Both the position numbers and the translations under genes were made by a program. From NCBI GenBank assembly GCA_030141605.1, contig JAQGDQ010000009.1, forward strand, positions 403,001 through 467,000: a DNA stretch of 64,000 nt, read 5' to 3'. The notes under the pieces were generated by a model, which saw only the letters and a list, made by a program, of their open reading frames with translations, had not been told where the DNA came from and did no database searches. This document shows, piece by piece, positions 28,365 to 30,575 of the stretch (its first letter is position 1; every line of letters starts with the position of its first letter). Source of the stretch: Tubiluchus corallicola. Lineage: Eukaryota > Priapulida > Priapulimorpha > Priapulimorphida > Tubiluchidae.

Positions 28365-30575
28365 TCAAATCAATTCTCGTCTTCGAGATAAATTTTCAGT
28401 ACTAACTGTTCTTGTCATTCCAAGGCTGCGCAATTGTATCTAAAACAGAAATAGATCAGTAGTAAATAAATTTTACGTATATAAAGTGATAATTACATTG
28501 CATTACATTGTACTGAAACAACTTTCTTTGATGATACAATTGTGCAAATACTGGAATGCGACTTCAATTGACTTAAAATCTGATTAAATATAGCCGCAGT
28601 GTTAGTCACCTGAAATATATTTTCTCTCAAAAATCGTTTTTCGTAAAAATATTTGCTCAGCGGCAGTGTAAAGTCTTAACTGAGCTGACACTGCCTGACA
28701 GAATACACAAGTTCGATATAGAATATAGACTCATTAGTTATTTTCTGTTCTGGGCAATTTCTGGCTAAGAAAAATCGCTTAGAGTTTCTAAATCAATTTC
28801 TAAACTGCACAACTACAGAAAAGCATCCATGGAGGACTATACGGAATGAAATAAAAAGAAACTACAAAGTGTTACCCGGACCTAAGAGGAAAATTTCGGC
28901 AATGCATCACAGCCAGAGACAATTCAAGGCAGGCCAAGAGAGAAAGTATAGTCACACTACAGTGACCTAACAATGACCTAGACAGCTGTGTGATATGCAT
29001 GATAATTTGCTCAAGTAAATTACAGATTTTCCAAATGCAACTTGCATTTGACTGCTATGAAAACAATTATACTAACCATAGCACTTTGACTGCTATGAAA
29101 ACTATTATACTAACCCAACTTAATGTTTTCATTTAGTACTTTGACTGCTATGAAAACAATTATACTAACCAAACTTAATGTTTTCATTTAGTACTTTGAC
29201 TGCTATGAAAACTATTATACTAACCCAACTTAATGGTTTCATTTAGTACTTTGACTGCTATGAAAACAATTATACTAACCCAACTTAGTGGTTTCATTTA
29301 GTACTTTGACTGCTATGAAAACAATTATACTAACCAAACTTAATGTTTTCATTTAGTACTTTGACTGCTATGAAAACTATTATACTAACCCAACTTAGTG
29401 GTTTCATTTAGTACTTTGACTGCTATGAAAACAATTATACTAACCCAACTTAATGGTTTCATTTAGTACTTTGACTGCTATGAAAACAATTATACTAACC
29501 CAACTTAATGGTTTCATTTAGTACTTTGACTGCTATGAAAACTATTATACTAACCCAACTTAATGTTTTCATTTAGTACTTGGACTACTATGAAAACAAT
29601 TATACTAACCCCTTCATCAGTTTTGCTGCCTGAGTTAAGAACTGATAGACTACTTGCTCTCTTCATGCTAAAAATAAGAACAAATTATAAACATTTTCTA
29701 CATTATTAAAAATGTGTGTAGCCTAGACAAAGATCATTAATTCACCAATAAATAACAAATTAATTAACTATTGAAAATTATTTATTGTGCTTGCGCCAGT
29801 ACACTAATACGAGCATTTAATTAAAATTCAAACTATAAAACTAGTTAAAATTTTACAATTTAAATTACTACATTTAATGTAAGTAATGTACTTAAAATTT
29901 CTAGTATATGTAATAACAAAGTTTGGAATGTTTACCACAGTAGTTACAAACTCACCTATTAAAATAAGTTCGTGAGAAACAGCAAAATATTAATTTCACA
30001 TTGAAAGCATTACAGTAACAATTCACAAAAAAACAAAATCAACGACAATTCATGCAAATAGGGCATTTTGCTTGCTAGGATAATGCAAGTGTCCTAAGAC
30101 TCTACACACACACAATAGCAACAATGCTGTCTCATATACAGAACACTTCTACTTTAGAATGCTGACAGGTATTAATTTATGTCTTATAAAGCAATAAGCT
30201 TTTACTTATTCACATTCTCATTGGCAAAATCTTAGAACAAATACAATCCTAGTAGCAGTTAGTGTTAAGCAAAACACCCCATCAGCCGGTGAAGCCAAAC
30301 TACGTGCAGTACACCTAGTGAGTACTAGTTAATAGCAGATTAGCAACTAGCATACTAGCACTCAAACAACACATTCAAGTTTCAATAACCTAGTAAGTTA
30401 ATGTTTTTAATTCCACCACCAGGGCAAGACTCAACACCGGGTCTTACCTCCCGCTGAGATCAGTTGTTGAGCCTAGTTCGCCCCGCCCCTTCAGTTTCTG
30501 TATGAGTTTTGCACTGCTTTTCCTAATAGAGGCCCTCAGCTGTGAGAACGAACCACTTCTTTGTCTATGTGGTCT
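28365..30575 (-). CDS. KLC: KLC exons 15-17: conserved C-terminal tail
   Basis: Exons 30575-30448, 29667-29610 and 28439-28365 code for residues 536-621. They read [19 protein letters not shown], then [19 protein letters not shown], then [14 protein letters not shown] and TGA at 28367-28365. The serine-rich basic motifs match alternatively spliced KLC tails of vertebrates and the sea urchin (MKRASS, LRASIRRSS, DNLSSRR), which help direct KLC to membranes and are phosphorylated. Phases 2 and 0 agree. Exon 16 ends directly against the 55-bp minisatellite, and its donor is the first copy of the repeated donor sequence. Confidence 0.92.

Follow-up and report, generated by a model that had tools for sequence, protein, structure and literature searches.

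Background

A minisatellite that multiplies a splice donor was reportedly described, to go by the title, in the human interferon-induced gene IFI6 (6-16) by Turri et al. 1995 (NAR 23:1854). Two downstream repeat units of IFI6 are reported to serve as donors (PMC4526556). The human gene ABCA7 carries a variable number tandem repeat (VNTR) in intron 18, with a 25-bp unit and with the first GT of the array being the donor of exon 18; this VNTR is polymorphic (approximately 12 to 427 units), and associations with skipping of an exon and with the risk of disease have been reported for it (De Roeck et al. 2018, PMC5954066). Canonical splicing, retention of one unit with a resulting frameshift, and skipping of exon 19 were all observed for ABCA7, and array length raised skipping only (PMC5954066). 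In amphioxus, the Adh3 and globin genes contain 'mirages', in which an exon-intron boundary has been duplicated in tandem in the manner of a minisatellite, with units of 10-160 bp. Many of these carry extra AG and GT signals and vary in length, and they were reported to exist without interference in regular splicing; turnover homogenises the core of such arrays and leaves out the ends (PMC3087553). The present analysis concerns a 55-bp minisatellite at the donor of intron 16 of a kinesin light chain (KLC) gene of the priapulid Tubiluchus corallicola, located within a window of 64,000 nucleotides (assembly GCA_030141605.1, contig JAQGDQ010000009.1, positions 403,001 to 467,000 of the forward strand). 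All positions given without a contig name are those of this window.

The KLC array is a further case of a known kind, the donor minisatellite, and a splicing effect of such arrays is not new. As in the ABCA7 VNTR, the array adjoins an exon, the first GT is the real donor, and each unit repeats the donor; retention of one unit is likewise predicted to cause a frameshift. In common with the ABCA7 and IFI6 kind, the decoy donors are, by U1 pairing, approximately as good as the real one. It differs from the ABCA7 VNTR in the length of the unit (55 bp), which is AT-rich, and in being known from DNA alone, read from one haplotype in the 343.5-Mb assembly (2344 contigs) that was searched. The homogenised core and divergent edges of the KLC array resemble those of the amphioxus mirages, whereas the mirages span the boundary and may hold exon sequence and the KLC unit shares 1-2 bp with the exon. 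The locus is most probably a minisatellite born locally at a splice donor, likely near-neutral, with decoy donors that would be tolerated as noise while canonical splicing dominates. In other animals, alternative splicing is known to affect the KLC tail.

The KLC gene and the position of the array

The KLC gene was reconstructed exon by exon (Table 1) and has GT-AG at all introns. The product is 621 aa in length; in phmmer, residues 6-514 matched 9pmb_C, a chain of kinesin light chain 1 (E=7e-245), and TPR families matched the product in Pfam. A second KLC gene is present on contig C2252 (G000:C2252:412495-422323). Exon by exon, identity between the two genes across the TPR region is 71-97%, and the animal therefore has a pair of closely related KLC genes. 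In this paralogue the counterpart of exon 16 ends with GAAGAG followed by GTACGA, in phase 0, and the 553-nt intron that follows, also phase 0, leads to the counterpart of exon 17, which reads VELSSICRGRGGLVRTVSTEMLAIHLSKDF and a stop in the same phase. The matching tail of the paralogue therefore confirmed exon 17 and its phase independently. An earlier sequence-only reading of the window had named the gene as KLC, placed the array at exon 16, and given the junction as 29610-28439, all in agreement with the rebuilt end of exon 16 and start of exon 17. More distant TPR matches were located on contig C2130. A degenerate array with 16/32/48-bp periods (TAGTACCAAATTTTCC) lies downstream of the KLC paralogue (L016 5262-5500).

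The array is 565 bp long, and was called by Tandem Repeats Finder with a period of 55, 9.7 copies, and 95% matches (29079-29611, score 961). The sequence GTTAGTATAAT occurs eleven times on the minus strand, with no other occurrence in the window, and the first of these copies contains the true donor of intron 16. Identity of the true donor with each decoy ends 1-2 bases upstream of the GT, inside exon 16; the unit takes in the exon-intron junction together with just these exon bases. The sequence-only reading had the array start exactly at the junction, which is right to within 2 nt, and its estimate of about ten decoys was borne out by the 10 counted downstream of the true donor. One sequence that it gave for the unit does not hold throughout, as TAGTTTTCATAG replaces TTGTTTTCATAG in 4 of the 11 copies.

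Copies are approximately 95-97% alike at all lags, and 6 columns vary among the 9 full copies. The edge copies have diverged while the core is homogenised: two of the 6 variable columns are private to copy 0, copy 9 carries the 17-bp deletion, and copy 10, the last and partial one, fits the unit for 30 bases, to 29047. A hairpin within the unit (GTTTTCAT...ATGAAAAC) was considered as a structural element and rejected, with fold z-scores of -1.75 to +0.82 and a GAAACC variant that breaks the stem in 5 of the 9 full copies. No known RNA families were found in the window. Only two other tandem repeats with units of more than 20 bp were detected in the window, a 77-bp tandem duplication at 61482-61632, whose copies are 98% alike, and, at 47307-47388, an array in which a 28-bp unit is repeated 2.9 times.

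Table 1. Coordinates in the window of the KLC gene, the array, and the candidate splice signals
Feature	Position	Strand	Description
KLC gene	28366..39606	-	17 coding exons, reconstructed exon by exon, open throughout
Exon 15	30448..30575	-	Basic segment; 5' of the array and left untouched by it
Exon 16	29610..29667	-	58 nt; 3' end GATGAAGGG then GTTAGT
Intron 16	28440..29609	-	1170 nt, phase 0
Exon 17 (last coding exon)	28366..28439	-	24 residues then TGA
55-bp minisatellite	29047..29611	-	Nine full copies, then a copy that lacks 17 bp and a partial copy
True donor GT of intron 16	29608..29609	-	GGG then GTTAGTATAAT; U1 duplex -8.3 kcal/mol
Ten decoy donors	29075..29554	-	First base of GT at 29554, 29499, 29444, 29389, 29334, 29279, 29224, 29169, 29114, 29076
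Acceptor-like TTTTCATAG sites	29055..29596	-	End the first 22 nt of each copy
Potential microexons	within 29055..29596	-	Nine of 33 nt and one of 16 nt, between an acceptor-like site and the next decoy donor

Splice signals within the array

The eleven donors are spaced 38-55 nt apart. The U1 duplex energy of the decoys was -8.3 kcal/mol (seven decoys) or -7.1 kcal/mol (three decoys), compared with -8.3 kcal/mol for the true donor. Among the GT sites of the 15 other KLC introns, 4 of 539 were at or below -8.3 and 7 of 539 at or below -7.1. Donors of this quality are rare in those introns, yet the array copies are one event repeated; the array as such is far beyond chance. With a donor position weight matrix (PWM), which was trained on 15 donors only and in which the bases at -3 and -2 cause the spread in score, the true donor scored 4.84 bits and the decoys 2.05, 4.37, or 6.02 bits. 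The donor of exon 14 (31288-31422, minus strand) reads GAT then GTTAGTATC and has GTTAGTAT in common with the exon-16 donor; T at +3 followed by AGT is found in only 2 of the 16 KLC donors, those of exons 14 and 16, and the U1 energy of the exon-14 donor is only -3.4.

The acceptor-like AG stands 22 nt after the donor GT. Using the acceptor PWM, TTTTCATAG followed by C (the T variant) scored 5.7, compared with 3.9 for the true acceptor, and 13 of 408 pseudo-acceptors of the other KLC introns scored as high as TTTTCATAG. When 55-bp stretches were taken at random from the other KLC introns, 9.4% held an AG with such a score, and the acceptor-like site therefore calls for no special explanation. 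A TACTAA is located 41 nt upstream of each next acceptor-like site, and each full unit holds what reads as a complete set of splice-like signals. Downstream of the array, intron 16 has its best pseudo-donor at 28609 (minus strand; TTTCAG then GTGACT, 8.9 bits, U1 -8.1). This site is also acceptor-like, and recursive splice sites have the same arrangement of AG followed by GT.

Predicted effects of decoy use on the protein

Occasional splicing from the next donor would lengthen the transcript by 55 nt and shift the frame, with the product ending within exon 17 and its last residues scrambled. Addition of two or more units, or retention of the intron, would give a common end at one fixed in-array TAG. 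From three units on, this TAG would lie at least 105 nt before the last coding junction, and products of the third or later decoy donor are therefore expected to enter nonsense-mediated decay under the usual 50-55-nt rule. Exon 17 is reached in frame by no decoy route. Every decoy product would be without the native last 24 residues and would keep the TPR domain and exon 15; judging from the reading frames, decoy splicing could only remove or scramble those last 24 residues. Because only the first donor yields the tail common to the paralogue, we infer that it is the main donor.

The sequence-only reading had also proposed that cryptic microexons, lying between an acceptor-like site placed 12 bp after one donor and the next donor about 33 nt on, and open in one frame, could be spliced into the KLC tail. 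The acceptor-like site is present but at the greater distance given above, and the spacing of 33 nt applies to nine copies but becomes 16 nt in copy 9 through its deletion. One frame, the third, is indeed open in the 33-nt microexons, but it is not the frame that the KLC gene uses. Read in phase 0, each of the nine runs into TAA (QSKY-stop) or TAG, with an immediate stop in the copy 0 microexon, and insertion of these microexons as coding sequence is contradicted. The 16-nt remnant of copy 9 would shift the frame. Copy 0 has its decoy acceptor at a distance of 22 nt from the true donor, probably too close for use, as an intron of 22 nt is generally too short to be spliced. The sequence-only reading further held that a variable copy number would make for a variable splice landscape, a reasonable idea that is conceivable in principle and for which ABCA7 is the precedent (PMC5954066).

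The basic segment of exon 15 has a counterpart in the KLC paralogue. A membrane-binding amphipathic helix has been described in the tails of some KLC isoforms (PMC13078783), and the exon 15 segment is taken here to correspond to it.

Origin of the array

The unit was found at no other locus of the assembly when up to 3 mismatches over 43 bp were allowed, a threshold that more diverged relatives could escape. The rest of intron 16 (606 bp) is single-copy in the assembly, and no dispersed repeat was seen in it. Since the unit is confined to one locus and the remaining intron is unique, the array most likely arose in place, and a dispersed satellite or transposon-borne repeat was rejected, within that threshold, on the same two results. 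In the history that we infer, a stretch of approximately 55 bp at the start of the intron, beginning with the GG immediately ahead of the GT of the donor, would have been tandemly duplicated, and slippage or unequal exchange would then have expanded the duplicate, with the donor copied in each unit. The 16 KLC donors, each with 2 bp on either side, cover approximately 0.13% of the window (by arithmetic), and coincidence of an array edge with a donor by chance is unlikely locally. Across the approximately 5,000 windows of the genome some chance cases are to be expected; the finding was picked for its appearance, and position alone proves no process.

No tandem repeats were found in the 553-nt intron of the paralogue, which compares with approximately 605 nt for intron 16 minus the array. 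The paralogue shares the phase-0 intron, and the intron therefore predates the split of the two genes and was not created by the array. The array was gained in one KLC gene or lost from the other.

Alternative explanations

Several points weigh against a near-neutral array with canonical splicing dominant. Its absence from the paralogue could reflect loss, or the divergence of an old pair of genes. Reading frame and precedent are the grounds for taking the first donor as the main one. U1 pairing shows the decoys to be not clearly weaker than the true donor, and the last decoy (ATG then GTTAGT, 29076) outscores it, with 6.0 against 4.8 bits using the 15-donor PWM; position must therefore choose the donor.

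It is unlikely that the array is a regulatory device, in which the number of units would decide what fraction of KLC transcripts ends at an array stop, with a truncated tail or decay as the outcome, and alleles would thereby tune the KLC tail or dosage. Such a device would draw on decoys approximately equal to the true donor, on the truncated or changed tail to which each decoy path leads, and on the precedent of ABCA7, in which both expression and skipping of the following exon have been linked to the length of the VNTR (PMC5954066). However, the unit shows no sign of constraint: the part that holds the splice signals is not significantly less variable than the remainder (1 of 22 columns vs 5 of 33, Fisher p=0.38). 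The paralogue does without an array, and the amphioxus mirages leave regular splicing intact (PMC3087553).

An assembly artefact in part of the array, affecting copy number above all, is likewise improbable. Tandem units that are 95-97% alike are prone to collapse or expansion, and in the draft assembly of amphioxus one of the globin mirages was considered an aberrant assembly (PMC3087553), but the irregular substitutions, the 17-bp deletion, and the partial copy are hard to obtain by misassembly, and 565 bp is short relative to long reads.

Array length is very unlikely to act as a heritable, or even a somatic, dial that sets what share of KLC transcripts decays or ends without the last 24 residues; somatic length change has been reported for the amphioxus Adh3 array (PMC3087553). 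It is highly improbable that the array records the birth of intron 16 through a tandem duplication. Mirages and AGGT duplications have been proposed as routes of intron gain (PMC3087553, PMC4974935), but the corresponding intron of the paralogue, identical in place and phase, is free of tandem repeats. Approximately half of intron 16 is, in addition, non-array sequence. Cryptic 33-nt microexons that add an 11-residue segment to the KLC tail can be dismissed as next to impossible: although 33 is a multiple of three and each unit has an acceptor-like site, a TACTAA, and a donor, the phase-0 stops refute a coding insertion unless exon 16 is entered in another frame, and exons so short are usually poorly recognised without enhancers.

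Neighbouring gene

The GC content of the window is 34%. COX1 found no match in the assembly although it did in control genomes, and the mitochondrial genome is therefore probably absent from the assembly; the haemocyanin beta-sandwich domain matched neither the assembly nor the controls. The gene downstream of KLC (2734-25969, minus strand) encodes a hydrophobic stretch at the N-terminus (MIDIIDSQYLTLLISLGAFVVTALLVYVF followed by SYEEAL) and contains coiled-coil exons. By eye it resembles ribosome-binding protein 1 or kinectin, and Pfam gave no match for three of its exons; a kinectin-like gene next to KLC would, if true, be a notable neighbour. Two near-identical exon-like frames of this coiled-coil gene (FKFWQDLR.KNWKAMEAISAIEKTVDNKVASEKV) are located at 10527-10760 and 12723-12938 on the minus strand, approximately 2.2 kb apart, and are an apparent exon duplication.

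Significance

The locus provides a natural test of spliceosome choice among eleven near-identical donors after one exon. If array length did act as a dial, individuals would differ in the cargo tails of kinesin-1. The case shows no new mechanism by itself; placed beside those of humans and amphioxus, it would point to splice donors as places where minisatellites have been born more than once.
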